Positions 7,392 to 21,344 of a DNA stretch of 64,000 bases are shown here, piece after piece. This DNA is from Polaromonas sp. (lineage in GTDB: Bacteria > Pseudomonadota > Gammaproteobacteria > Burkholderiales > Burkholderiaceae_C): the NCBI RefSeq assembly GCF_029945895.1, contig NZ_JAQSDL010000013.1, forward strand, positions 1 to 64,000, given 5' to 3'. Under the pieces are notes generated by a model that did no database searches, was not told the DNA's origin, and saw only the letters and a list, made by a program, of their open reading frames with translations. The stretch's first letter is position 1, and each line of letters opens with the position of its first letter. The translations under genes were made by a program, and so were the position numbers.

Positions 7392-7407
7392 CTATTGATT
7401 CAGTAGC
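7347..7407 (-). repeat. Family A element supplying the stop codon of the GGDEF-EAL gene
   Basis: On the complement the head reads GCTACTGAATCAATAGCTGC, then GCGC, a spacer, GGGCTGGAAGC and an ATTTT tail. The TAG of the upstream gene (7394-7392) lies inside the palindrome, so the last residues ALLNQ and the stop are made of repeat. Confidence 0.8.
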
Positions 7408-9932
7408 GCTTTGATAGCCGCGAGCTGCGCGACTGAACTGGCCGGCGCGTCTTCTGACGGCCGCGCCAGGCCATGGATGAACACTTCGAGCTCGTCGATC
7501 GGCAACGGCTTGCAGAACAGGTAACCCTGGAAGCAGTGACAGCCGTGGCGGGCCAGGAAGTCGCGCTGGGCTTCGGTCTCCACACCCTCGGCCATGACAC
7601 CCAGCCCCAGGCTTTGTGCCAGGCCGATGATGGTTCGGGCAATTGCCGCGTCATTCGGGTCGGTCAGCACGTCCTTCACAAACGCGCGGTCGATCTTGAG
7701 CTGGTCCAGCGGCAGGTGTTTCAGGTAAGACAGCGCCGAGTAGCCGATGCCGAAGTCGTCAATGGACAGCGTCACGCCGGCGTCCTTGAGGATGCCCATC
7801 TTGGCAATCGTCACGTCCATGTCGTTGGCCAGCAGGCTTTCCGTCAGCTCGAGCTTGAGCCGGTGCGCGCTGATGCCTGCGTTGGCGATGGCCTTCATGA
7901 CCTGCTCGACAAACTCGGGGTGACGGAACTGGCGCACACTGACGTTGATCGCGATGCTGAAGCTGTCGGTTTCCGGGCAGGCGGCCCAGCGCGCCAGCTG
8001 GGCGCAGGCGGTTTCCAGCACCCACTTGCCCAGCGGCAGGATCAGTCCGCTTTCCTCGGCCTGGGGAATGAAACCATCGGGGAACACCAGGCCGCGTTGC
8101 GGGTGCTGCCAGCGCACCAGGGCTTCGACGCCCACCATGAAACCCTTGGGGCCGACCTGCGGCTGGTAGTGCAGCACGAATTCCTCGTTGCGCAGGCCCT
8201 GACGCAGTTCGTAGGTCAGCGCTGCGTTGGCAGTCGCCACGGCCTGCATGCCGGGGTCAAAAAAGCAGATGGTGTTGCGCCCCGCGGCCTTGGCCTGGTA
8301 CATCGCCAGGTCGGCCTGCTTGAGCAGGTCGCCCACACTTTTTTCGTGCTGGGTGATCAGCGTGATGCCGATGCTGCAGGTGCCGTCATAGTCCTGGCCC
8401 GACAGGTCGCAGGGTTCGCACAAGGTGGCCAGAATTTTTTTTGCCACAACTTCTGCCTTCTTGTGGGCCAGCGGCAGGTCGTCACCCAGGTCTTCCAGCA
8501 GGACGACAAATTCATCGCCACCCAGGCGGGCCACGGTGTCGCGCAGCCGCACGCAGCTGTTCAGCCGCGCCGCCACCTTTTGCAGCAGCAGGTCGCCGGT
8601 GGCATGGCCGCGCGTGTCATTGAGCATCTTGAAGTTGTCAAGGTCGATGAACATCAGCGCCCCGGTTTTGTCGGGGTTGTCCGTGTGGGTCAGCGCTGTG
8701 CGCAGGCTGTCCATCAGCAGCTGGCGGTTGGGCAGCTGGGTCAGCGTGTCGTAAAACGCCAGGTGCTCGATTTCTTCCTCGGCGGCCTTGCGTTCGGTGA
8801 TGTCGCGCGCCACGGCCACCCAATGCGTCAGGCCCCGGCTGAAATAGTCCACCGGCACGATGTCCAGCTCCAGCCAGAATTGCTCGCCGTTTTTCTTGTA
8901 GTTGATGAGTTCTGCGCGCACCGGCCGTGCCTCCTGCAGTGCCAGCCGGATGCGGTCCAGCTCGACGCGCTGCGTGCGCTGCCCCTGCAGAATGCGCGGC
9001 GTCCGTCCCAGCACTTCGTCGGGGCTGTAGCCGGTCTGCCGTTCGAAGGCGTCGTTCACGAACACGATGCGGGGGCCGGGGTCGTCCAGTGGGCCGGCTT
9101 CGGTGATGAGCACAATGTCGTTCAGGCGCGAGATGCTGGTTTGCAGCAGCAGCAACTGCTCCTGCGACTGGCGCCGGTCGCTGACATCGCGCAGGTACAT
9201 GGCCACGCCCTCTTCAAAAAGGTAGGCGCGCAGCTCCAGCCACCGTTCGGGAATGGCACAGAAGACCTCGAACTCGCGGCTGGCGCCGCCGCCAAGCATG
9301 TCCAGGATTTCCTGGTGCACCCGGCCCGTGGCATTGCCCTCCAGCACGTCCCAGAGTTTGCGGCCCAGCAGGGCCTTGCCCGGGGCGCGCAGCAGGCGTT
9401 CGCTCTCGCTGTTGACATAGGTCAGCCGGCCCTCATGGTCCAGGGTGGCAAAAGCGTCGGTGATGCTTGCCAGTGTCGTGGCCAGCCGCATGGTCAGGCT
9501 TTGGGTTTCCTGTTCGGCGCGTTTTTGGGCCGTGAGGTCTTTCAACACCCCGGACAGTTGCACGATGGTGCCCGAAACATCGCGCAAGGCCTCGCCCAGT
9601 GAGCGCATCCACAGGCGCTGGCCGCGCCCGGTGAGGACCTGCACCTCCTGGTCAAACGCCGTTCCGTCGGCAAGGCAGCGGTCCAGCGCCGCGGCCATGC
9701 GGGCGCGAGACTCGGGCGCATACACATCAAGCGCGTTGGCCCAGTCCGGCGCCTGCTCCGGCGTCATTTCCAGCATGGCGGCCAGGTGCGCCGTCCATGT
9801 CAGCTGATGCGAGGGCAGCGCCAGCATCCACGCGCCCGCACCGGTGGCCCGCTCCAGCACCGCAAGTGGGCTCGACGGCGGCAGGGGCGGGGCGGGGGGG
9901 AGGTTGTGGGGCGGGGGAGGGGTGACCAGCAT
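7392..9932 (-). CDS. PAS-PAS-PAS-GGDEF-EAL cyclic-di-GMP signalling protein
   Basis: The protein has 846 residues from ATG 9932 (GTG codons at 9941 and 9938 are alternatives). Three PAS-like regions (about 25-135, 145-260, 262-385, the last ending in a PAC-type WVAVARDITERKAA) precede a GGDEF domain (about 390-555) with intact ARLGGDEF and an upstream RLRD inhibitory site at the right spacing. An EAL domain (about 565-815) follows with GVEALVRWQHP, INVSVRQF, ELTESLL, SIDDFGIGYSAL, LKIDRAF and MAEGVETEAQ. Both active sites look intact, so it could make and break c-di-GMP. No membrane segment is seen. Its start codon lies in an inverted repeat. Confidence 0.95.
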   Translation of the reverse strand: MLVTPPPPHNLPPAPPLPPSSPLAVLERATGAGAWMLALPSHQLTWTAHLAAMLEMTPEQAPDWANALDVYAPESRARMAAALDRCLADGTAFDQEVQVLTGRGQRLWMRSLGEALRDVSGTIVQLSGVLKDLTAQKRAEQETQSLTMRLATTLASITDAFATLDHEGRLTYVNSESERLLRAPGKALLGRKLWDVLEGNATGRVHQEILDMLGGGASREFEVFCAIPERWLELRAYLFEEGVAMYLRDVSDRRQSQEQLLLLQTSISRLNDIVLITEAGPLDDPGPRIVFVNDAFERQTGYSPDEVLGRTPRILQGQRTQRVELDRIRLALQEARPVRAELINYKKNGEQFWLELDIVPVDYFSRGLTHWVAVARDITERKAAEEEIEHLAFYDTLTQLPNRQLLMDSLRTALTHTDNPDKTGALMFIDLDNFKMLNDTRGHATGDLLLQKVAARLNSCVRLRDTVARLGGDEFVVLLEDLGDDLPLAHKKAEVVAKKILATLCEPCDLSGQDYDGTCSIGITLITQHEKSVGDLLKQADLAMYQAKAAGRNTICFFDPGMQAVATANAALTYELRQGLRNEEFVLHYQPQVGPKGFMVGVEALVRWQHPQRGLVFPDGFIPQAEESGLILPLGKWVLETACAQLARWAACPETDSFSIAINVSVRQFRHPEFVEQVMKAIANAGISAHRLKLELTESLLANDMDVTIAKMGILKDAGVTLSIDDFGIGYSALSYLKHLPLDQLKIDRAFVKDVLTDPNDAAIARTIIGLAQSLGLGVMAEGVETEAQRDFLARHGCHCFQGYLFCKPLPIDELEVFIHGLARPSEDAPASSVAQLAAIKALLNQ

Positions 9933-9939
9933 GGTCACC
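9921..9939 (-). promoter_or_regulatory. Inverted repeat straddling the start codon of the GGDEF-EAL gene
   Basis: On the minus strand GGTGACCA-TGC-TGGTCACC is a perfect 8-bp inverted repeat with a 3-nt loop. The ATG start spans the last base of the left arm and the loop. It could be an mRNA hairpin limiting initiation or a protein operator. Confidence 0.45.
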
Positions 9940-9983
9940 ACGCTAACAGACGCAGCGCTGGCCCGGGCTTCGCAAAGCGCCCG

Positions 9984-10585: not shown

Positions 10586-11278
10586 CTAGCCCAACAAGTC
10601 GGCGTAGGTCTGGCGGTCGGCGGCGTAACAGCTGCAGGCGGCGGCTTCCAGCCCCTGGCGGTCCAGCACGGTGAGCTCGCCGCGGTGGTACTCGATCAGG
10701 CCGCCCTTCTGCAACGCGCGGGCGGCGACGGTGATGCCGACGCGGCGCATGCCCAGCATGTAGGCGAGAAACTCGTGGGTGACATGGAAGCTGTCAGCGT
10801 GGGCGCGGTCCTGGCTCATCAGCAGCCAGCGCGCCAGGCGCTGGCCGGTCAGGTGAAAACGCAGGCAGCCGGCCGACGCGGCGTGCTGCGCCATCAGCAC
10901 ATAGAGGTAGCGCTGCAGGCCGCGCTGCAGCGCCGGGCTGCGCGCCAGCTCGCGCCTGAAGGCGACCGTGCCGATGCGCCAGGCGCCACCAGCGCCTTGC
11001 ACCACCGCGCGCCATGGCCCGATGGCGACACCCAGCGCCAGCTGCGCACCCAGCATGCCTTCGCGCCCTATCATGCCCACCTCCACGCCCGGGCTGCCTT
11101 CGACCGGCGTGACCAGCGAGATAAAGCCCTGGGTGGGAAAGTACACGTGGCGGACCGGTTGGCCGGGCTCGCACAGGACCTCGGACAGTGCCAGCTCGAC
11201 GGGTTCGCAGTTGGCCAGCAGGCGCGCGCGGTCCCGGCGCGGCAGGAGTTCGAGGAGGTGGTTTTCGACTGCAGACAA
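10586..11278 (-). CDS. Crp/Fnr family transcriptional regulator (first copy)
   Basis: The protein has 230 residues. The cyclic-nucleotide-binding fold (about 10-125; VYFPTQGFISLVTP, VEVGMIGREGMLG) is followed by a winged helix (about 150-215; VTHEFLAYMLGMRRVGITVA). The cAMP-binding arginine/serine pattern of E. coli CRP and the Fe-S cysteines of FNR are not evident, so the signal is unknown. The start is TTG: an in-frame TGA lies 30 nt upstream, and GGAGAG stands 5 nt before it. It is a close paralogue of the next gene, sharing the VYFPT and GMIGREG/VVGHEG signatures, and is transcribed in the same direction. Confidence 0.9.
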   Translation of the reverse strand: MSAVENHLLELLPRRDRARLLANCEPVELALSEVLCEPGQPVRHVYFPTQGFISLVTPVEGSPGVEVGMIGREGMLGAQLALGVAIGPWRAVVQGAGGAWRIGTVAFRRELARSPALQRGLQRYLYVLMAQHAASAGCLRFHLTGQRLARWLLMSQDRAHADSFHVTHEFLAYMLGMRRVGITVAARALQKGGLIEYHRGELTVLDRQGLEAAACSCYAADRQTYADLLG

Positions 11279-11423: not shown

Positions 11424-12140
11424 TCAGATCGCCAGCTTGTCGGGGAGCAGGCGGTCATATTCCTTTTTGACCACGGCATAACATTCGCAGGTGCGGTTTT
11501 CCAGCCCGGGGCGGTCCAGCACCGTGATGCGGCCGCGCGAATAACGGATCAGGCCGAGGTTTTGCAGCTTGACGGCACCTTCGGTCACGCCTTCGCGGCG
11601 CACGCCCAGCATGTTGGCAATCAGTTCCTGCGTCATCACCAATTCGTTGCCCTGCAGCCGGTCCAGGCTCAGCAGCAGCCAGCGGCACAGCTGCTGGTCC
11701 AGCGAGTGGTGGCGGTTGCACACCGCCGTTTGCGCCATCTGCGTGATCAGTGCCTGGGTGTAGCGCAGCAGCAGGTGCAATACAGGTGCCCGCTTGAACT
11801 CTTCCTTGATGACCTGCGAGGGAAGCCGGAAGCCCTGGCCGGCACTTTGCACCACGCCCCGGCTGGGTGTCGATTCGCCGCCCATGAACAGCGAGATGCC
11901 GACCACACCTTCGTGGCCAACCACGGCGATTTCGGCCGAGGCGCCGTTTTCCATCACATACAGCAGGGAGACGATGGCGGTGGTCGGGAAGTACACATGG
12001 CTCAGGGTGCTGCCCGATTCATAAACCACCTGGCCCAGCGGCATGTCCACCCATTCGAGTTGCGGCAACCAGCGCTGGAACTCGGCCTCAGGCAGGGCAG
12101 CCAGCAACTCGTTTTTTCGGGGATCGGGGGAAACGGCCAT
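11424..12140 (-). CDS. Crp/Fnr family transcriptional regulator (second copy)
   Basis: The protein has 238 residues from ATG 12140, supported by GGAG 9 nt upstream. A cyclic-nucleotide-binding fold (HVYFPTTAIVSLLYVMENG, AVVGHEGVVGISLFMG) and a winged helix (MTQELIANMLGVRREGVTE, then LIRYSRGRITVLDRPGLE) are clear. The C-terminus carries CECYAVV, matching CSCYAAD of the first copy. The VVGHEG family is common in Burkholderiales, often near stress or signalling genes; its ligand is not known. It stands 145 bp upstream of the first copy, with its own likely promoter. Confidence 0.9.
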   Translation of the reverse strand: MAVSPDPRKNELLAALPEAEFQRWLPQLEWVDMPLGQVVYESGSTLSHVYFPTTAIVSLLYVMENGASAEIAVVGHEGVVGISLFMGGESTPSRGVVQSAGQGFRLPSQVIKEEFKRAPVLHLLLRYTQALITQMAQTAVCNRHHSLDQQLCRWLLLSLDRLQGNELVMTQELIANMLGVRREGVTEGAVKLQNLGLIRYSRGRITVLDRPGLENRTCECYAVVKKEYDRLLPDKLAI

Positions 12141-12293
12141 CAACAAAAGCTCCGAAGCGGTATCTGGCTTCGAGTGGCGCCTCTGGCAGAGGTCCCTGGC
12201 CAGCCTGTGATGTTAGGCCGTTCCGGACCCTGTGTATGTGCGCTATCGAACAAACCGATGAACGGCTGTCAGGGCGCGAACCACCTGCTTGCC

Positions 12294-12737
12294 TCAGGTC
12301 GGCATGGCCTGGTCGTGCTGCGCGACGGCTTCGCGCTGCGCCGCCTGCACGTCTTCCGTGAGGATGTTGGCCGTCTGTTCGGTGCAATAGGCTAGCAGCG
12401 CGTCGATTTCGGTGGTCTTGTCAAACACCGCGTCGGCGCCCAGTTCAGCCGCGCGCCGGCGGATTTCAGGCGTGGCGTAGTTGGTCAGCACCACCACTTT
12501 CTGGTAGGGCTCGCGGTGGCGGCAGCCGGCCAGCACCCCCAGCCCGCTGCCCTCCTTGAGGAACAGATCCACGATGGCCAGGTGCCAGGTGCCGTCATGC
12601 AGCGTCAGCCAGCGGCTGGCTTCAGCCTGGGTGACCGCGTGGGCCACGACCTGGACATCGGCGATTTCCTCCAGCGTGTCGATCAGATTTTCCCGAATGA
12701 TCTGGTTGTCTTCGGCGAGGTAGGTGATGAGTGCCAT
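12294..12737 (-). CDS. Single-domain response regulator (CheY-like receiver)
   Basis: The protein has 147 residues from ATG 12737, with AGGAC 8 nt upstream. The receiver fold has acidic pair E9-D10 (LAEDNQ), phosphoacceptor D57 (AIVDLFL), T85 (VVLTNYA) and K107 (VFDKTTE), so it should be phosphorylatable. After the receiver there are only about 20 residues and no output domain, so it must act through a partner. No histidine kinase lies in the window; the neighbouring Crp-like regulators and the c-di-GMP enzyme are possible members of the same circuit. Confidence 0.92.
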   Translation of the reverse strand: MALITYLAEDNQIIRENLIDTLEEIADVQVVAHAVTQAEASRWLTLHDGTWHLAIVDLFLKEGSGLGVLAGCRHREPYQKVVVLTNYATPEIRRRAAELGADAVFDKTTEIDALLAYCTEQTANILTEDVQAAQREAVAQHDQAMPT

Positions 12738-13088
12738 GTTGCTTGTCCTGCAGTCTTGTTGTGGGTTGAGACGTTGACCGCGTGCCATACGGTCAATCCA
12801 GCGGGTTCTCCCATCAGACGCCGCCAACTGGAAAAAAAAGCCGTCCATCGGCGTGCTGGTCTGTAGGACGGGGCTGCGCGTGTTCGCCTTCCTCGCGGTA
12901 GCCTGAATCGCTGATGAAAGTGGGGAGGTGTTGGGACAGGGCTTGTGTGTGCCAGCGCACAGAGGGACTGGGGCCGCGTCCTACAGGCAGGGACGGCATT
13001 TGCTCAGGCGCCCGGTCCTTTGTGGTTTTTATAGTCCATGAGAACTTAAGTTAACACCCATCCGGTAAGCCATTCGGACCTCAACACC
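12738..13088. other. Gene-free stretch of 351 bp before the polysaccharide cluster
   Basis: This is the divergent region between the response regulator and the gene at 13089. It holds a 10-bp perfect inverted repeat, CTGTAGGACG at 12861-12870 and CGTCCTACAG at 12977-12986, separated by 106 bp. Near 13040-13058 there is an AT-rich patch with ACTTAAGTTAAC that may carry the promoter of the cluster. No RNA gene was recognised. Confidence 0.5.
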
Positions 13089-13382
13089 ATGCACAACGAC
13101 TTCGACCAGCTGAAAAACTTTCCCGACATTGGCACGCTGCGGCCGGCGCTTCACTCGCTGTGCTCGCGTTATGGGTCCGTGGCCCGGCTGGACATCCTGG
13201 CGGCCAGCCAGGCTGGCAAGCGGCAAGCCCTGTGTTTCCTGCGCCTGGATTCTGCCGCGCAGGAACAGCAATTCATGAGTGAGCTCGGCGTGGGCCGTTT
13301 CGGCGGCGACCTGGTCGTGATTGTTGACTTGTTGACCCCCGGCGCCATGACCGGCCCCGGCGCGAGCGCGCAACCGGCCTGA
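13089..13382 (+). CDS. Small hypothetical protein with an RRM-like pattern
   Basis: The protein has 97 residues. The pattern SLCSRYGSVARLDILAASQA, ALCFLRLDSAAQEQQFMSEL, GGDLVVIVDL resembles the beta-alpha-beta-beta-alpha-beta order of RNA-recognition motifs, but the aromatic RNP residues are weak, so this is a suggestion only. The tail (from about 84) is Gly/Ala/Pro-rich. The ribosome-binding site is poor. It lies 69 bp before the wecB-like gene in the same orientation and may be the first gene of the polysaccharide operon. Confidence 0.65.
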   Translation: MHNDFDQLKNFPDIGTLRPALHSLCSRYGSVARLDILAASQAGKRQALCFLRLDSAAQEQQFMSELGVGRFGGDLVVIVDLLTPGAMTGPGASAQPA

Positions 13383-13451
13383 TCCACCGCTGAGGCGCCT
13401 GCGCGCGCAGGTTCCCGGCCAGCCCTTTCCCTCTTTTTCTGAAAAGCTTCC

Positions 13452-14567
13452 ATGCAAAACATTCTTATCGTCTCGGGCACACGCCCTGAAATCATCAAGC
13501 TGGCGCCCGTCTATCACGCGCTGCGTGCAACCGACTGGGCGCGCGTCCAGTGGCTGCACACGGGCCAGCATGGGGACATGGCGAGCCAGATCTTCGAATG
13601 TTTCGACGTGGTGCCGGACATCACGCTGGAGCGCGCAGGCAGCAGCCTGCTGGCATTCAGCATGGGCTGCCGGGAGCAGCTTGACACGGTGATGACGTCG
13701 CAGGACTGGTCGCTTGTCATTGTTCAGGGCGACACCGAAAGTGCCTTTCAGGGCGCGCTGGCCGCCTTCTACAACCGCGTCCCTCTGGCGCATGTGGAGG
13801 CCGGGCTGCGTACCTACAACCTCGCCCGGCCGTTTCCCGAAGAGGGCCTGCGGCAGATGATCAGCCGCCTGACCCAGTTTCACTTTGCGCCCACGCAGCG
13901 CGCCATGGTGGCCCTGCAGACGGAGGGCATTGCCGATGAGTTCATCCACCTCACGGGCAACACCGTGATCGATGCCCAGCAATGGACCTGCGCCCACCGC
14001 GGCGTCAGGCGCACCAGCGCGGGCCGCGGCCATTTGCTGGTCACCGTGCACCGGCGTGAAAACTGGGGCAATGACGTGGAGGAGATCTGCCGCGCCATAG
14101 CCGACATTGCGCGCCAGCAGCCTGATCTGCAGGTGCTGTTTCCGGTGCACCTCAATCCCGTGATACAGGGGCCTGTCAATGCCCTGCTGGGCGATATTGC
14201 CAACGTGACTTTGACGGCGCCACTGGACTACACCGGCATGCAGCAGGCGCTGGCCGATGCGTGGATGGTGTTGACCGACTCCGGCGGCCTGCAGGAAGAG
14301 GCTCCGACCTTTGGCGTGCCGGTGCTGGTGCTGCGCGATGAAACCGAGCGGCCTGAAGCCATTGAAGCGGGCTGCGCCCTGCTGATCGGCGCGACGCGCA
14401 GCGCCATCGTTGCCGAGGTCACCCGGCTGTCGAAGGACACCGGGGCGTACACCCGGATGGCGCAATCCGGCAATCCGTTTGGTGACGGCACAGCCTCCGC
14501 GCAGATCGTGGCGTTGCTCAAGGACAGTCTGGTCGCGGCGCCCACCGCCGTTCCCGCGCTGGCCTGA
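13452..14567 (+). CDS. wecB: UDP-N-acetylglucosamine 2-epimerase (non-hydrolysing)
   Basis: The protein has 371 residues, the usual family length. Motifs in order are GTRPEIIKLAPV near the N-terminus, HTGQHGDM, VIVQGDTESAFQGALAAF, HVEAGLRTYNL with PFPEEGLRQMISRLTQFHFA, VTVHRRENWG and TDSGGLQEEAPTFGVPVLVL with the ERPEAIEAG substrate loop. It interconverts UDP-GlcNAc and UDP-ManNAc in the cytoplasm. The next gene is a processive glycosyltransferase, so it probably supplies UDP-ManNAc for an exopolysaccharide and not for enterobacterial common antigen, whose other genes are absent here. Confidence 0.94.
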   Translation: MQNILIVSGTRPEIIKLAPVYHALRATDWARVQWLHTGQHGDMASQIFECFDVVPDITLERAGSSLLAFSMGCREQLDTVMTSQDWSLVIVQGDTESAFQGALAAFYNRVPLAHVEAGLRTYNLARPFPEEGLRQMISRLTQFHFAPTQRAMVALQTEGIADEFIHLTGNTVIDAQQWTCAHRGVRRTSAGRGHLLVTVHRRENWGNDVEEICRAIADIARQQPDLQVLFPVHLNPVIQGPVNALLGDIANVTLTAPLDYTGMQQALADAWMVLTDSGGLQEEAPTFGVPVLVLRDETERPEAIEAGCALLIGATRSAIVAEVTRLSKDTGAYTRMAQSGNPFGDGTASAQIVALLKDSLVAAPTAVPALA

Positions 14568-14593
14568 CCGAACCTTTCCACTGGAGCATGCTC

Positions 14594-16030
14594 ATGTTGC
14601 CTTCCTCTTGCGACCTTCTCGCCGAAAGCCCCGTTCCCGCCCTGCGGCGGCCGGGCCGGCTGCGTGTGGCGCTGTTCCTCGCATCCGTCGCCCTCATGGG
14701 GGCGGGGCCGGCGCTGGCGCAAGCCCCGGCAACGGGTGCGCTGATTCCTTCGTTCAAGGATTACCCGGTTGCCGCCGTGATGACGACCCTGCTGTTCGTG
14801 ATCGTGGTGGGCATGATGATCTATGGCGTGCGCCACTTCATGTTCACCATGAACCGGCTGACCGGCGTGCAACGCCACCCCTACATCGACATCGCCGTGG
14901 CGCGCTGGCCGATGATCACCGTCTTCATTGCTGCGCACAACGAGGAGAAGGTCATTGCCGGCTGCATCGAGGCGCTGCTCAATACCGACTACCCGGTGGA
15001 GTGTCTCAAGATCATTCCTGTCAATGACCGGTCCAAGGACGGCACTGGCGAGATCATCGACGGTTATGTGGCGCGGTTCCCTTCGCGCATTTCACCGTTC
15101 CACCGCACCAGTGGCAAGGCCGGCAAGTCGGCCGCGCTGAAGGACGCCCTGAATTTTGCCGAGGGCGACATCGCCATCATTTTTGACGCCGACTACGTGC
15201 CCGGCCGCGGCCTGCTCAAGCAGCTGGTGGCCCCATTTTTTGACCCGGAAGTCGGCGCGGTGATGGGGCGCGTGGTGCCTGTCAACAGCGGCGCCAATCT
15301 GCTGACCCGCATGCTGGACCTGGAGCGCTCGGGCGGCTACCAGGTGGACCAGCAGGCGCGCATGAACATGAACCTGCTGCCTCAGTACGGCGGCACCGTC
15401 GGTGGCGTGCGCCTGTCGGCGGTGGAGGCGGTGGGCGGCTGGCACGACGACACGCTGGCCGAAGACACCGACATCACGTTCCGGCTCATGCTCAACGGCT
15501 GGAAGACGGTATACACCAACCGCTCGGAGTGTTATGAAGAAGTGCCCGAAGAGTGGAGCGTGCGCATCAAGCAGGTGACGCGATGGGCCAAGGGCCACAA
15601 CCAGGTGATGACGCGCTACTGGTGGAAGTTCGCCACCAGTTCGTACCTGACACCAGCACAGCGCATTGACGGCCTGTTGCTGCTGTTTGTGTTTGTCATT
15701 CCGCTGGTGATGCTGGCCGGGTGGTGTCTGGCGTTGGGGCTGTACTTCCTCAATGCGGGTTCCCTGCTGTCGTCGCTGATTCCCGTTTTCGCGTTGATGA
15801 TTTATGGCACGCTGGGCAACTTTGCCGCGTTTTTTGAAATTGTGATCGCCGTGCTGATTGACGGTAACCGGCGGCGCCTCAGGTTGTTGCCTTTCAACAT
15901 GCTGGGCTTCCTGGTCAGCCTGTTCGCCATCTCGGGCGCTGTCTGGAGCTTGCTGCTCGACAGGATTTTCAAGCGCGAGATGGTCTGGGACAAAACCATC
16001 CGCTACCGCTCCAAGGCCGTTGAACAATGA
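14594..16030 (+). CDS. Processive family 2 glycosyltransferase, membrane-bound
   Basis: The protein has 478 residues from ATG 14594 (GGAG 7 nt upstream; ATG 14588 is possible). A signal-like segment (VALFLASVALMGAG) and a second membrane helix near 60 precede a GT-A domain with ITVFIAAHNEEKVIAGCI, VNDRSKDGTGEI, IIFDADYVPGRG (DXD), the acceptor-site AEDTDIT and QVTRW (QxxRW). About four C-terminal membrane helices follow. This is the architecture of cellulose, chitin, hyaluronan and poly-GlcNAc synthases that polymerise and extrude a glycan. The substrate is probably UDP-ManNAc or UDP-GlcNAc given the neighbouring epimerase (inference). No PilZ domain is present. Confidence 0.92.
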   Translation: MLPSSCDLLAESPVPALRRPGRLRVALFLASVALMGAGPALAQAPATGALIPSFKDYPVAAVMTTLLFVIVVGMMIYGVRHFMFTMNRLTGVQRHPYIDIAVARWPMITVFIAAHNEEKVIAGCIEALLNTDYPVECLKIIPVNDRSKDGTGEIIDGYVARFPSRISPFHRTSGKAGKSAALKDALNFAEGDIAIIFDADYVPGRGLLKQLVAPFFDPEVGAVMGRVVPVNSGANLLTRMLDLERSGGYQVDQQARMNMNLLPQYGGTVGGVRLSAVEAVGGWHDDTLAEDTDITFRLMLNGWKTVYTNRSECYEEVPEEWSVRIKQVTRWAKGHNQVMTRYWWKFATSSYLTPAQRIDGLLLLFVFVIPLVMLAGWCLALGLYFLNAGSLLSSLIPVFALMIYGTLGNFAAFFEIVIAVLIDGNRRRLRLLPFNMLGFLVSLFAISGAVWSLLLDRIFKREMVWDKTIRYRSKAVEQ

Positions 16031-17079
16031 CCCCCAACTACATCACCTATACCGCGTTTGCCCTGATCTGCCTGTTGCTGCTGACGCTGCCGTTTGTGCC
16101 CGCGTTTCGCGAGTGGCTGCGGCCCACGGATTTCGCAGCGCTGCCGATTTCGGCCAACTACACCACCGACATTGACCACTTTGCCCGGCGTCTGCATGCC
16201 GATGTCTCGGCCAAACTCGGGCTGGGCGAGCCCACCGGGTATGAGGATTTCGAATTTGTCGACGATCCGGATTGGGCGGCCGGTACCGAGCTGGACTGGG
16301 GCAAGGCGGAGAAGCGGCTGATTGCACGCAGCAGCATTGCCAGCCCTTTGCCCATCCACAGTGCGCAGCCGGTTTATGTGCAGGGAAGCCTGCGCGCCGG
16401 CGCTGAATCGGTCTTCCCGGCGCTGTATGCCACCGGTGACATTGATCTGGGTGAGCACAGCATCGTCAAAGACTGGGCCCATGCCGACGGCGTGCTGCGC
16501 ATGGGGCCGCGCAGTGTGGCGCTGCGGCGGGTGTCCGCCGGCAGTGCCATTGAGCTTGGCAACGAAGCCTGGTTCGAGCGCCTGAATGCGCCCACCCTCC
16601 GGTTCGGCGCGCAGCTCAGCCCTGTGCCGTCGCCCGCTGATGCTGTGCAGGCGCCAGCCAGTTATGCCGATCTGCCAGGCGCCGTCCAGCAAACGCCCCT
16701 GCTGTACCTGATCCGGGGTGATTGCGCGCTGCCGGCCGGCAGCATTTACCGGGGATCGCTGGTTGTGACGGGCTTTCTGACCATTGGCGCGGCGACCACC
16801 ATCGTTGGCGACATCAAGGCGCGCGAAGGGGTGAGCATCGGCCACCGTGCCAGTGTGCAGGGCGCGGTAACCTGTGAAAAACGCGTTTATATTTACAAGG
16901 ACGCCAGCGCCTGGGGTCCGGTGGTGTCCGAGAGCGACATCCTGATCGGGGCCAGCGCGCTGGTGGGCCTGCCTGAAGCGCCCACCACGGTGACGGCCCG
17001 CAACATCATCGTGGAAGACGGCGTGGTTGTGCATGGCACCCTGTGGGCCAGAGAGATTGGCATGGTGAAGCAGGCATGA
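16027..17079 (+). CDS. Membrane-anchored polymer-forming (bactofilin-like) protein
   Basis: The protein has 350 residues. One N-terminal membrane helix (ITYTAFALICLLLLTLPFVP) is followed by a long region and a C-terminal right-handed beta-helix pattern of short hydrophobic repeats (YRGSLVVTGFLTIGAATTIV, GDIKAREGVSIGHRASVQGA, ITEVG-like turns), as in bactofilins and polymer-forming cytoskeletal proteins. The start overlaps the glycosyltransferase stop (ATGA), so the two are translationally coupled. It may scaffold the synthase in the membrane; this role is inferred from position. A soluble bactofilin lies 3.7 kb downstream. Confidence 0.75.
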   Translation: MTPNYITYTAFALICLLLLTLPFVPAFREWLRPTDFAALPISANYTTDIDHFARRLHADVSAKLGLGEPTGYEDFEFVDDPDWAAGTELDWGKAEKRLIARSSIASPLPIHSAQPVYVQGSLRAGAESVFPALYATGDIDLGEHSIVKDWAHADGVLRMGPRSVALRRVSAGSAIELGNEAWFERLNAPTLRFGAQLSPVPSPADAVQAPASYADLPGAVQQTPLLYLIRGDCALPAGSIYRGSLVVTGFLTIGAATTIVGDIKAREGVSIGHRASVQGAVTCEKRVYIYKDASAWGPVVSESDILIGASALVGLPEAPTTVTARNIIVEDGVVVHGTLWAREIGMVKQA

Positions 17080-18062
17080 GGTTCAAACAACTGTTGACGG
17101 TTTGTATGATGGGCACGCTGCTGCTGACTCAGGCGTCGTGTGCCGGTGCGGCAGCACCTCTGGAGCTGGGCGGCTACACGGACGACAGCGGCGCCATCAC
17201 CGTGCTGCACGGTGGCGATTCGGCGGACCCCTATTTCGCCATGCAGGCCCTGCTGCTGGCGCACGAGAACGGCATGGACATCTCGGTACCGGCTGAAAAG
17301 TTTGCCAACTGGCTGGTGCCACGGCAAAAACCGGACGGCACTTTTGACCGGTTCTGCCGGGGTGCCGATAAAACATGGGTGTCCTGCAAGACGGCCGATG
17401 CCGACGACTCCCTGCTGGCGATCTGGATGAAGCTGCTGGAAACCATGCCGGCCAAGCTGGCCGGCAACCCGGTCTGGCGCAAGAGCCATGAGGTCAGCAA
17501 AGTCGCACTGGAGCACCTGTACCAGCCGTCGCGCGGCATTTACATGGTCTCGCCGGTGGTCTTGCATGGCCTGTTCATGGACAACCTGGAAGTCTGGTCG
17601 CTCAAGGTGCACCTGAAACAGCCGCAGCAAAGGGCCGCTTCTGACAAGCTTGCGCGCGCCATTCATGACACGTTCTGGGACCCGGTGAACAAGCGGTTTC
17701 TGGTGTCTACCCAGCTCGAGCAGCGCTCCCAGAAGCAGGCTTTCTATCCCGACCATGTGGCACAGATTTTTCCGCTGATGTTCGATTTTCCGCTGCTGCC
17801 CGTCAATTCGAGGCCCTACTACCGCGACTGGATGGCGGCTCACCGAGCCGAGTGGCTGATTCAGGGCCAGGCCGACTACCCATGGGGGCTGCTGGCGGTG
17901 CTGGCGCTCCGGCAGAACGACAAGGTCAGCGCAGGGTGCTGGCTGCGCGAGTCCACGCCGCTGCGCCATTCGAAACGCTGGTCGGTGAGCGATGAGGCGT
18001 CCTATCAGATCCTGCTCAGCCGGGGTGTGGTGGCTGTGGACAAGCAGACCAGCTGCAAATAG
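17076..18062 (+). CDS. Secreted protein of unknown function in the polysaccharide cluster
   Basis: The protein has 328 residues from ATG 17076, which overlaps the previous stop (ATGA). It has a signal peptide with a possible lipobox-like TQASCAGA (cysteine at about residue 23). The rest is helical with repeated aromatic/aspartate motifs (GGDSADPYFAMQALLLAHEN, PDGTFDRFCRG, ADADDSLLAIWMKLLE, SRGIYMVSPVVLHGLFMDNL), reminiscent of alpha/alpha-toroid glycosidases or polysaccharide lyases. I do not assign it to a family. A hydrolase or lyase that trims the exported polymer would fit, as in cellulose and alginate operons. Confidence 0.8.
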   Translation: MRFKQLLTVCMMGTLLLTQASCAGAAAPLELGGYTDDSGAITVLHGGDSADPYFAMQALLLAHENGMDISVPAEKFANWLVPRQKPDGTFDRFCRGADKTWVSCKTADADDSLLAIWMKLLETMPAKLAGNPVWRKSHEVSKVALEHLYQPSRGIYMVSPVVLHGLFMDNLEVWSLKVHLKQPQQRAASDKLARAIHDTFWDPVNKRFLVSTQLEQRSQKQAFYPDHVAQIFPLMFDFPLLPVNSRPYYRDWMAAHRAEWLIQGQADYPWGLLAVLALRQNDKVSAGCWLRESTPLRHSKRWSVSDEASYQILLSRGVVAVDKQTSCK

Positions 18063-18125
18063 GGTGAAGTGAGCCGGGTCGTGGACCCAGGCTGCAAGAC
18101 ACAACAATTTTTTGGAGGACGTTTT

Positions 18126-18971
18126 ATGTTGAAAGTCATTTTCCCAGCCTTGCTGGTGATCCTTGGTGCCGCGGCGCCTGTAGCGGCACAGACGGGAGGC
18201 GCGGGCAGCGGCTCGGTCCAGCCCGGCAGCATGCTGACCCCACCGCCCGAGCCGTCTGGTGCGGAACCGGTGCGCAATCTGGAGCTGAGCACCGGCGTCC
18301 AGCACCTGACCAATGGTTACGGGAACTGGCACGACCTGACGCTGAGGGGTGTCTATGGGGTGGACAAACATGTGCTGCAGGGTGAGTTGTCCGCGCACAA
18401 GCGGTTTGGCGAAAATGGCACATTCCTGGGCGTGAGCGACACCTATACCTTCAACGAAGACTGGTTTGGCTCATTGGCACTGGGTGTGGGAGACGGGGCG
18501 TTTTACCTGCCACGTTACCGGGTAGACGCGACGATTTACCGCAAATTCCTTCCTGCCCGCAATCTCGTCGGGTCTGTGGGCGTGGGCCATTACAAGGCCC
18601 CTGACGGGCACACCGACCGCAGCCTGTCCATCGGTGCTGCCTACTACTTCGAGACCCCCTGGATTGTCGAGGGTGGTGTCCGTGTGAATCGCAGCAACCC
18701 GGGCTCGGTGGATACGCAGCAACAATTTGTGGCGCTGACATGGGGGCGCAACAAGCAGGACCTGGTGACTGCGCGTTATGGCTGGGGCAGCGAAGGTTAT
18801 CTGGCGATTGCCGCCAACCGGCAACTGGTCAACTTTGACAGCCGTGAGGCCAGTCTGACCTGGCGTCACTGGTTCAATGCGCGTACCGGCGTGCTGGTGG
18901 GCGCCAACCGCTACACCAACCCGCTGTACCGCCGCAGTGGTGTGAATGTCGGCGTTTTCCACGATTTCTGA
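18126..18971 (+). CDS. yaiO: YaiO family outer membrane beta-barrel protein
   Basis: The protein has 281 residues from ATG 18126, with a strong GGAGG 8 nt upstream. A signal peptide (ILGAAAPVAAQ) is followed by a Gly/Ser/Pro linker and then alternating amphipathic strands (NLELSTGVQHLTNGYGNWHD, LRGVYGVDKHVLQGELSAHK) ending in GVNVGVFHDF with a terminal phenylalanine, the signature of outer membrane barrels. The YaiO-type domain is found beside glycosyltransferases and is thought to take part in polysaccharide export. Here it would be the outer membrane component of the cluster. Confidence 0.82.
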   Translation: MLKVIFPALLVILGAAAPVAAQTGGAGSGSVQPGSMLTPPPEPSGAEPVRNLELSTGVQHLTNGYGNWHDLTLRGVYGVDKHVLQGELSAHKRFGENGTFLGVSDTYTFNEDWFGSLALGVGDGAFYLPRYRVDATIYRKFLPARNLVGSVGVGHYKAPDGHTDRSLSIGAAYYFETPWIVEGGVRVNRSNPGSVDTQQQFVALTWGRNKQDLVTARYGWGSEGYLAIAANRQLVNFDSREASLTWRHWFNARTGVLVGANRYTNPLYRRSGVNVGVFHDF

Positions 18972-18980
18972 TCACGCCCC

Positions 18981-19820
18981 ATGAGCTCCAGAACCCACTC
19001 CCTGACCGAAGCCGCCCGTGAGCAGGAGCGACTTTTCAACGCCTCCTTTTCCGCGGCCCGGGAAGCCCGCGCCCGCCAGGTCCTCGTGCGCCCGCACCGG
19101 TCCATCACTCCTCTGAAGGTCACGCCCTGGCTGCTGGCGCAGGCAGTCGTCCTGCCCTTGATCCTGTGCGCGCTGGTGTACTACGGAAAGCCGTGGCTGT
19201 TTGATTTCTGGCGCGACTGCATTCTGTTCTGGTCCAACGGGCTGGACATGCCCTTCACGCTGACCAACCAGCTCAACGATGCGGGGCAATACGCGATGCA
19301 GCTGTCGAGCGGGCCGGACGACAGGCCGCTGCCAAGCCGCACCATCCTGCTCGTGACGGCGGTCGTGACGCTGCTGGCGCTGGCCCTGTCCGTACGCATG
19401 AAAAATGCGCAACTGCCGCTCAAGTACCCCGTGCGTATCGTGGGCGTGATCCAGCTGGTGACGGTGATCTATTTCTGGCTGTCGCCGCAGGCCTTTCCGT
19501 ACAGCATCGCACGGCATAGCGAAGAGCTCATGACCATTGGTTACGTGGTCATGCTGGCCACGCCGGTGATGCTGGCCATGGGGTATTACATCCTGAACCA
19601 GCGCCTGTCGATCAAGCTGTTCCACACCGCGTTGATCCTGGGCTTTTTTGCCGTCATGATTCCCCATCAGGTGCTGGCGCAGGCTTTCATCATGCAGCAC
19701 CTGTCGGTGCTGTTCATGCCTGTGCTGTATATCTGCATGGGTGCCGTCTTTGACGCGTTGGTGTTTGTCGCCCTGTACTCCTGGGCTGTCAGCGGCGCGC
19801 CGCCAGACGCCACGGTCTGA
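18981..19820 (+). CDS. Polytopic inner membrane protein of the polysaccharide cluster
   Basis: The protein has 279 residues. A charged cytoplasmic N-terminus of about 45 residues is followed by about six hydrophobic segments (LLAQAVVLPLILCALVYYG, ILLVTAVVTLLALALSV, IVGVIQLVTVIYFWLS, TIGYVVMLATPVMLAMGYYI, LILGFFAVMIPHQVLA, LYICMGAVFDALVFVALYSW). No family is recognised. The 9-bp gap after the barrel gene and the lack of a ribosome-binding site suggest coupled translation as the last gene of the operon. A part in polymer export or modification is inference. Confidence 0.8.
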   Translation: MSSRTHSLTEAAREQERLFNASFSAAREARARQVLVRPHRSITPLKVTPWLLAQAVVLPLILCALVYYGKPWLFDFWRDCILFWSNGLDMPFTLTNQLNDAGQYAMQLSSGPDDRPLPSRTILLVTAVVTLLALALSVRMKNAQLPLKYPVRIVGVIQLVTVIYFWLSPQAFPYSIARHSEELMTIGYVVMLATPVMLAMGYYILNQRLSIKLFHTALILGFFAVMIPHQVLAQAFIMQHLSVLFMPVLYICMGAVFDALVFVALYSWAVSGAPPDATV

Positions 19821-20792: not shown

Positions 20793-21344
20793 ATGGCACT
20801 GCAATCACCGTTCTTCGGCAAACGCGACAATGAGTCTTCCGGTCTGCGTCATGGCAACCCCAACCCCAATCCCTACGCAAACAGTCCTGCGGCAACCAAC
20901 GTCTCGAACAGCGCGCCCGCCGCCGCTGTGACCGCAGCAAGCAGCGCGCCGGCTGCCGCCGCTACCCGCGAGAGTGGCGGCAGCAAGCTGACGGTCGGCC
21001 CCAACATCAAGCTCAAGGGCGTCGAGATCACTGACTGCGACACCCTGGTGGTGGAAGGACTGGTGGAGGCCACCATGGATTCGCGCGTGATGCAGATCTC
21101 CGAGCACGGCGAGTTCAAGGGTTCGGCCGAGATCGACATCGCCGAAATCCATGGTGCGTTTGACGGCAACCTGACGGTGCGCCAGAAGCTCGTGATTTAT
21201 GCCACCGGCAAGGTCACCGGCAAGATCCGTTATGGCAAGCTGGTGATCGAAGAGGGTGGTCAACTCGCCGGCGAAATCCTGTTTGGCGCCGTGACCAACA
21301 CGAAAACCGCATTGGCTGGAAAGCCGGGCCTTCAGGTCGCCTGA
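20793..21344 (+). CDS. Bactofilin
   Basis: The protein has 183 residues, with GAAGGA 8 nt before the ATG. A Pro/Ala/Asn-rich disordered N-terminus (1-68) is followed by a bactofilin beta-helix (about 70-170) with the repeats IKLKGVEITDCDTLVVEGLV, EFKGSAEIDIAEIHGAFDG, LVIYATGKVTGKIRYGKLVI and EEGGQLAGEI. Bactofilins self-assemble into cytoplasmic filaments that place envelope enzymes or machines. Length and domain position are typical of stand-alone forms. It is transcribed towards the carboxyltransferase gene. Confidence 0.93.
   Translation: MALQSPFFGKRDNESSGLRHGNPNPNPYANSPAATNVSNSAPAAAVTAASSAPAAAATRESGGSKLTVGPNIKLKGVEITDCDTLVVEGLVEATMDSRVMQISEHGEFKGSAEIDIAEIHGAFDGNLTVRQKLVIYATGKVTGKIRYGKLVIEEGGQLAGEILFGAVTNTKTALAGKPGLQVA

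Follow-up and report, generated by a model that had tools for sequence, protein, structure and literature searches.

The window analysed here is a stretch of 64,000 nucleotides from Polaromonas sp. (contig NZ_JAQSDL010000013.1, positions 1 to 64,000), the host genome being 4.12 Mb in 122 contigs and 95.27% complete. According to the list of open reading frames (ORFs) and the family scans, it contains a run of six genes, all on the + strand, that ends at position 19820. In order these are wecB, the gene of a processive synthase of the glycosyltransferase family GT2, a gene for a bactofilin-like protein, a gene for an (alpha/alpha)-barrel protein (hereafter the toroid), yaiO and a gene for a polytopic membrane protein (Table 1). 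A first-pass annotation of this DNA had described the six families as one run joined by ATGA overlaps, beginning at 13089, and had proposed an N-acetylmannosamine (ManNAc)-type exopolysaccharide operon. All six were recovered. The overlaps are found at two junctions (GT2/bactofilin-like and bactofilin-like/toroid), the remaining intergenic gaps being 20, 6 and 9 bases, given the listed starts. Position 13089 belongs to a separate ORF of 97 amino acids, and wecB itself starts at 13452. Promoters and terminators were predicted no more often than in shuffled sequence.

Table 1. Features of the six-gene run and its surroundings (window positions).
Feature	Positions	Strand	Description or evidence	Remark
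wecB	13452-14567	+	WecB-type non-hydrolysing UDP-GlcNAc 2-epimerase	
GT2	14588-16030	+	processive membrane GT2 synthase, 480 amino acids	Pfam GT2 families and motifs
bactofilin-like gene	16027-17079	+	predicted N-terminal membrane helix, then beta-helix in two stretches	
toroid gene	17076-18062	+	secreted-looking (alpha/alpha)-barrel, glycoside-hydrolase-like	ATG start; alternative GTG start at 17043 possible
yaiO	18069-18971	+	YaiO-family outer-membrane beta-barrel	presumed polymer exit
polytopic gene	18981-19820	+	inner-membrane protein, about six helices (hydropathy)	no known family
small ORF	13089-13382	+	97 amino acids, no Pfam match	possible first gene of run
canonical bactofilin	20793-21344	+	PF04519, 65.9 bits	just downstream of operon, outside conserved core
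PAS-GGDEF-EAL protein	7392-9941	-	domain scan	possible regulator only
two adjacent Crp/Fnr-like proteins	10586-11278, 11424-12146	-	domain scan	
response-regulator domain protein	12294-12848	-	PF00072	possible regulator only

The conservation of the run was studied with a profile of 12 aligned GT2s, which was used to scan contigs from 84,980 genomes. This yielded at least 593 stretches; 531 were confirmed, and the best 80 of the 531 were analysed. The presence counts given below refer to these 80 loci, chosen by GT2 similarity and with family profiles iterated on the same loci. The first-pass annotation had found a bactofilin-like subunit in a synthase operon unfamiliar, and had suggested that the same gene order be sought elsewhere. 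In all 80 loci the bactofilin-like gene lies immediately 3' of the GT2 gene (median spacing 3 bases, range -6 to 225, with script-chosen starts), which makes it a constant part of the cluster and no accident. The polytopic gene was found in 78 of the loci, wecB in 75, yaiO in 74 and the toroid gene in 63. A deacetylase-like family that is without counterpart in the window's run is present in 47. Gene order elsewhere in the cluster is variable, wecB being mostly located upstream of the GT2 gene or downstream of the toroid gene. Eight of the loci with missing genes lie on short contigs (L035, L042, L070, L089, L091, L095, L101 and L103). Pairwise distances among the six genes correlate with r values of 0.64-0.93, which none of 100 permutations reached for any of the 15 pairs. 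Such a correlation points to common inheritance of the genes and does not by itself demonstrate coupling.

The loci are labelled as Beta-, Alpha- and Gammaproteobacteria, Acidobacteriota and others. The GT2 tree of 82 rows holds 64 Pseudomonadota, nine Acidobacteriota, one row each of three other phyla and six ungrouped rows, the taxon labels of metagenome bins being those submitted; the rows nearest to the window GT2 are from Polaromonas. A check independent of GT2 was performed in 399 genomes of the order, in which the polytopic profile matched 8 places in 7 genomes and the bactofilin-like profile matched places in 11 genomes. Each of the 8 polytopic places has a bactofilin-like place no more than about 4 kb away. 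Bactofilin-like places without a polytopic match are one full-length place about 2 kb from a contig start (G113), two that comprise the C-terminal part only (G200 and G230) and a weak one (G143). The six genes form a real conserved unit, and the constant adjacency of the GT2 and bactofilin-like genes in the 80 GT2-selected loci puts the cluster far beyond chance. One polytopic gene (G043:C1:4288300-4289073) contains an internal TAG, and wecB of Cupriavidus pauculus (L062, 5840-7305) is split over two overlapping frames; each is possibly a pseudogene or an assembly error. A recurrent ORF of 320 amino acids that overlaps the wecB frame (e.g. L058, 9157-10116) was without match in Pfam and was taken for a shadow ORF.

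The cluster is also found on plasmids. A conjugative plasmid of Escherichia fergusonii (L003) carries, in one run, genes for a bactofilin, WecB, YaiO, a hypothetical protein, an acyltransferase, a second hypothetical protein and a GT2. By profile the two hypothetical proteins belong to the polytopic and toroid families, so that this is a diverged version with all six. The chromosome of E. coli AH19B041 (L105) shows the same gene order, again with all six families diverged from those of the window, and its six proteins are 51-84% identical to their E. fergusonii plasmid counterparts. Close DNA matches to the bactofilin-wecB part were found in 2 of 5,426 E. coli genomes, the match spanning 15% of the query. 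A Cupriavidus megaplasmid has all six families as well, and a GT2 protein search at 1e-60 matched 2 of 72,556 plasmid records. In a separate plasmid search one match (H3) proved to be wecB of a Klebsiella enterobacterial common antigen cluster, and H4-H7 cover the same stretch of the query. Near both the E. coli AH19B041 and the E. fergusonii cluster are a FaeA/PapI-type regulator, a DsbA-like gene and a phosphoadenosine-phosphosulfate-reductase/ParB-like pair. The acyltransferase is an addition to the run in both species, and the E. coli cluster is also close to fimbrial genes.

The window GT2 has the motifs of a processive synthase: D147, DxD at 200/202, ED at 292-293 and QxxRW at 329-333, all kept in 100 of 100 aligned rows, and hydropathy reveals its membrane helices. 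Its matches are to general Pfam GT2 families, and no family of another kind has any weight in it. For WecB the TIGR00236 score is 393.5 bits (equivalog cut-off 210). In the WecB alignment D94, E116, E130 and E131 are unchanged in all 80 ungapped rows, as is H200 in 78 of 78; the acidic residues we take to be catalytic. The product of WecB is UDP-ManNAc, formed from UDP-N-acetylglucosamine (UDP-GlcNAc), according to the available text of PMC8669472. The operon wecB encodes the only WecB relative in this genome at E<=1e-10. WecG (PF03808) was not found in the genome by a search whose control was detected in 7 of 14 genomes. One sugar dehydrogenase scores above the cut-off, two further matches being short, weak and below it. 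It is Ugd-like, with 674.7 bits on the UDP-glucose dehydrogenase model (cut-off of 757 not reached) and 115.5 and 75.2 bits on two UDP-ManNAc dehydrogenase models (cut-offs 750 and 459). With a single WecB, no WecG and a dehydrogenase of the Ugd type, no evident user of UDP-ManNAc other than the GT2 was found. From this lack of other users in an incomplete genome we infer that the polymer contains ManNAc. The exopolysaccharide synthase operon of ManNAc type proposed by the first-pass annotation is supported by the frequent wecB, single-copy in this genome, and the sugar itself keeps the rank of a prediction.

It is unlikely, in our estimation, that the polymer is instead a heteropolymer or is made of another hexosamine, with WecB feeding a minor sugar. 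The curated GT2 family closest to the window protein is PgaC/IcaA (TIGR03937; 125.9 bits against a cut-off of 422.3), which makes a GlcNAc polymer, and the deacetylase-like genes would suit any N-acetylhexosamine polymer. Besides, wecB is absent from a few clusters and is the gene whose distances correlate least with those of the others (r 0.64-0.72 versus 0.81-0.93). Against this stand the occurrence of wecB in 75 of the 80 clusters, its single copy without other evident user in this genome, and the window's run, in which there is no further glycosyltransferase.

The AlphaFold2 model of the bactofilin-like protein (predicted local distance difference test, pLDDT, 92.1) consists of a long N-terminal helix (residues 4-31) and two beta-helix stretches. 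Residues 230-343 superpose on BacA (2n3d) with a root-mean-square deviation (rmsd) of 2.5 over 102 of the 103 BacA residues and a Z of 8.7, which is tied with that of other beta-helices. The predicted fold is read as a right-handed helix of the bactofilin type, of which the C-terminal half would fit BacA. The bactofilin family PF04519 was matched by 40 of 50 aligned family members at E<=1e-3. The E. fergusonii member scores 31.0 bits, above the cut-off, and that of E. coli AH19B041 22.1, below it. Among the 93 proteins with 280 or more amino acids, hydropathy detected a clear N-terminal membrane segment in 73. In these 73 the mean number of arginines and lysines flanking the helix is 0.03 on its N-terminal side versus 2.03 on its C-terminal side, with the larger number behind the helix in 70 proteins and equal numbers in 3. 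By the positive-inside rule these charges would place the beta-helix in the cytoplasm. The residues most conserved are glycines, F183 and the juxtamembrane P25, E29 and D35, among which no obvious catalytic cluster is recognized. As nearly invariant residues next to the membrane, P25, E29 and D35 form a candidate docking motif. The protein would thus resemble BacA in its C-terminal half and in its cytoplasmic position as judged by charge bias. It differs in having an extra N-terminal half and a membrane helix, and in the position of its gene right behind a polysaccharide synthase gene. A canonical bactofilin encoded just downstream of the operon, relatives of which are near the cluster in 5 of the 80 loci, might be a partner that co-assembles with it.

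Right-handed beta-helices are common among polysaccharide enzymes. The same secretion system could therefore be imagined with a beta-helix protein that is not a scaffold but an enzyme (epimerase, acyltransferase or lyase-like) with the polymer or its precursor as substrate, a view to which we attach a low probability. LbH_EIF2B is weakly matched by 3 of 50 members, Ice_binding by 2 and Hexapep by 1. A single-sequence search detected no solved relatives, and a profile search of solved structures ranked the putative transferase YdcK best (E 1.4e-5), followed by LpxA and LpxD chains, ahead of BacA (0.015). However, with the cytoplasmic position indicated by the charge bias, the beta-helix would be kept apart from the chain that is exported, and the conserved residues do not form an obvious catalytic cluster. 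Moreover, chains of LpxA, LpxD and GlmU superpose on the model at an rmsd of about 11 versus 2.5 for BacA. A left-handed hexapeptide acyltransferase in particular is disfavoured, as among the matches listed no hexapeptide enzyme superposes at low rmsd, in a re-ranked list that in itself excludes nothing.

For the toroid no family was found in Pfam or NCBIfam; weak MGH1-like matches occur in 3 of 43 members (best 0.0014). A sequence-based search for solved relatives gave poor and implausible matches only, the best (0.0023) being a designed repeat protein. The AlphaFold2 model has a pLDDT of 93.9. With it, Foldseek placed the methylmannose polysaccharide hydrolase MmpH (7qsj_B) first at E 8.1e-6, with a GH8 xylanase next and PssZ (6r2m, E 1.7e-3, TM scores 0.48/0.50) and BcsZ (3qxq, E 2.2e-3) lower down. 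With VIA-align, MmpH (7qsj_A) gave a Z of 18.8 and an rmsd of 4.0 over 268 residues, tied with dextran dextrinase (9ju0, Z 18.9). The model has the (alpha/alpha)6 glycoside-hydrolase barrel fold known from BcsZ (GH8), MmpH and PssZ (GH126). This fold alone is no proof of hydrolysis, since epimerases and phosphorylases are also among the matches. All 81 rows of the alignment share D119, D122, D180 and E183 (numbered from the GTG at 17043). In MmpH the change of two aspartates and one glutamate costs activity, as stated in the available part of PMC9883506; the two sets are likened by description and not by a mapping of residues. A second, diverged toroid copy is present near the cluster in seven loci (L038, L039, L041, L045, L046, L048 and L094). 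The deacetylase-like gene either joins or replaces that of the toroid. Its products have about 600 amino acids (e.g. L059, 13428-15278; L068, 12243-14174) and match Polysacc_deac_1 weakly, 2 of 7 scanned members being above the Pfam cut-off and 5 below.

YaiO provides the operon with an outer-membrane beta-barrel (TIGR04390 220.5 bits, cut-off 32; PF19413 137.3 bits). The window polytopic protein has no family in Pfam or NCBIfam, and its 43 aligned members gave two chance-like single matches, no family occurring in more than one of them.

The operon was compared with known polysaccharide systems. The E. coli NfrBA-YbcH/WecB pathway makes the NGR glycan, the receptor of phage N4, which is WecB dependent and a proposed ManNAc polymer (available text of PMC8669469 and PMC8669472). 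The first-pass annotation had invoked it as a parallel. It is very improbable that the window system is a member of this family with swapped parts: the two share the logic of WecB, a processive inner-membrane GT2 and an outer-membrane barrel (same sources, as far as available), but the GT2 aligns with NfrB at 26.6 bits at best and contains only GT2 families, without the cyclic di-GMP (c-di-GMP) domain (MshEN type, C-terminal in NfrB) in Pfam and NCBIfam scans, the toroid profile, the only protein so compared, gives no meaningful alignment with YbcH (probability 0.1), YaiO lacks the TPR region that the accessible text of PMC8669469 gives for NfrA, and no bactofilin-like or (alpha/alpha)-barrel gene is annotated in the K-12 nfr operon.

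In Listeria, the polysaccharide Pss is described in the available text of PMC11439720 and PMC6307706 as a beta-1,4-ManNAc chain with galactose branches, with PssZ as its dedicated hydrolase, and the latter source also mentions a deacetylase. The likeness would consist in a ManNAc polymer, in PssZ among the fold matches of the toroid and in that deacetylase, set beside the deacetylase-like gene of 47 of the 80 loci. Listeria is Gram-positive and without outer membrane, and the two systems are likened by descriptions and one fold match. The toroid and PssZ are not established as kin, PssZ being one of many barrel matches to the model and MmpH and the GH8 xylanase ranking higher. By analogy, then, the window system may resemble Nfr or Listeria Pss in its working, but it is not Nfr. 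With the poly-N-acetylglucosamine (PNAG) system PgaABCD it shares the nearest curated GT2 family and, in many relatives of the locus, deacetylase-like genes. It differs by its wecB, bactofilin-like and yaiO genes and by a GT2 far below the PgaC cut-off. In the yaiO-yaiX-yaiP-yaiS region of E. coli K-12 (L104) a GT2 and YaiO are likewise encoded near each other, but that region has no wecB. YaiP (27% identity over 215 residues) and YaiO (no meaningful BLASTP alignment) were rejected as orthologues. The K-12 yaiX, beside yaiO and yaiP, is interrupted by IS2. Sheath genes of Sphaerotilus/Leptothrix were considered in view of two loci labelled Sphaerotilus (L092 and L102); the available text of PMC13386937 names no such cluster.

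Taken together, the operon probably encodes a synthase-dependent system for the secretion of a ManNAc exopolysaccharide with a cytoplasmic scaffold of bactofilin fold, as judged from gene content and predicted structures. WecB would convert UDP-GlcNAc to UDP-ManNAc. The processive GT2, with the polytopic protein as its probable partner, would polymerise this sugar and thread the chain across the inner membrane. The bactofilin-like protein would be anchored in the inner membrane, its cytoplasmic beta-helix gathering or positioning the synthases. In the periplasm the (alpha/alpha)-barrel would trim or edit the chain, relatives often adding a deacetylase, and YaiO would be the outer-membrane exit of the polymer.

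Several observations weigh against this proposal. The window bactofilin-like protein scores 24.1 bits on PF04519, just below the gathering score of 27.9. Its model gave no Foldseek match at E<=0.001, BacA appearing at E 4.5, and the Z of BacA is the tied one reported above. A clear membrane segment was lacking, at the cut-off used, in 20 of the 93 long proteins. The cluster counts are conditional, as they come from the 80 best GT2 loci among the 531 confirmed ones, on which the profiles were also trained. Two loci with flanks long enough to show wecB are without it (L064, where about 6 kb upstream is available, and L072). It is also missing from the short contigs L035 and L101, and Collimonas sp. 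OK607 (L079) has just a remnant upstream of the GT2 gene (9587-9801), possibly a pseudogene or an assembly error. The toroid gene is absent from 17 loci, 9 of which carry the deacetylase-like gene. Across the phylum, a draw of 397 genomes showed the polytopic family in 4, each of which belongs to the window's order. The window bactofilin-like protein used as query matched in 11 of 61 relatives, including 9 of 37 same-genus genomes (its own genome counted). With so few carriers in the order-wide, phylum-wide and same-genus samples, the system is patchy. A second user of UDP-ManNAc could have been missed in a genome that is 95% complete and in 122 contigs. The cluster was not seen beside genes of unrelated pathways, nor were GT2 orthologues of other known specificity, both of which the first-pass annotation had regarded as damaging; equally, no relative with a known product or measured specificity was found.

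The GGDEF-EAL protein and the regulators that the first-pass annotation had placed upstream of the operon are present, on the opposite strand. Within flanks of up to 10 kb, GGDEF relatives occur in 16 of the 80 loci, Crp-like ones in 18 and response regulators in 2. Control by c-di-GMP through conserved neighbours, as the same annotation had suggested, is therefore unsupported, with GGDEF in just 16 loci. Two PilZ proteins are encoded elsewhere in this genome. The 97-amino-acid ORF in front of wecB has tblastn relatives in 13 of the 80 loci, mostly directly upstream of the cluster, and looks by eye like a small RNA-binding protein.

To our knowledge, single-synthase exopolysaccharide systems have no dedicated cytoskeletal gene. 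The operon apparently represents a variant of synthase-dependent polysaccharide secretion that spans several phyla and has so far gone undescribed. Among the papers listed by searches of open-licence PubMed Central literature, which mostly leaves out subscription papers and preprints, none describes this cluster or a synthase operon with a bactofilin gene. Support for the architecture is good, and on these sequence grounds the chemistry of the polymer and the role of the scaffold become testable claims. We tentatively propose, as a possibility somewhat short of probable, a new class of synthase-dependent polysaccharide secretion in several phyla, in which a membrane-anchored cytoplasmic subunit of bactofilin fold is constant and lines up or clusters the synthase. 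In bacteria that make cellulose ribbons a cytoplasmic cortical belt has been proposed to hold polysaccharide synthases in line (available text of PMC7811197). Its component is not identified there, and the likeness is one of idea, that of a cytoplasmic structure aligning synthases, and not of sequence. As the bactofilin-like gene lies behind the synthase gene in all 80 loci, the scaffold question raised by cellulose ribbons can be put to the test via one gene. If the proposal is true, it would provide, at the level of genes, a bacterial polysaccharide synthase that is guided by a cytoskeleton and open to genetic tests. A biofilm or surface polymer that has gone unstudied and an unnamed membrane protein family would also come into view, and the likely hydrolase of the polymer would be a candidate biofilm-dispersing enzyme. 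The regular presence of a membrane-tethered bactofilin relative suggests that polymer export in bacteria may be organised by a small internal scaffold.

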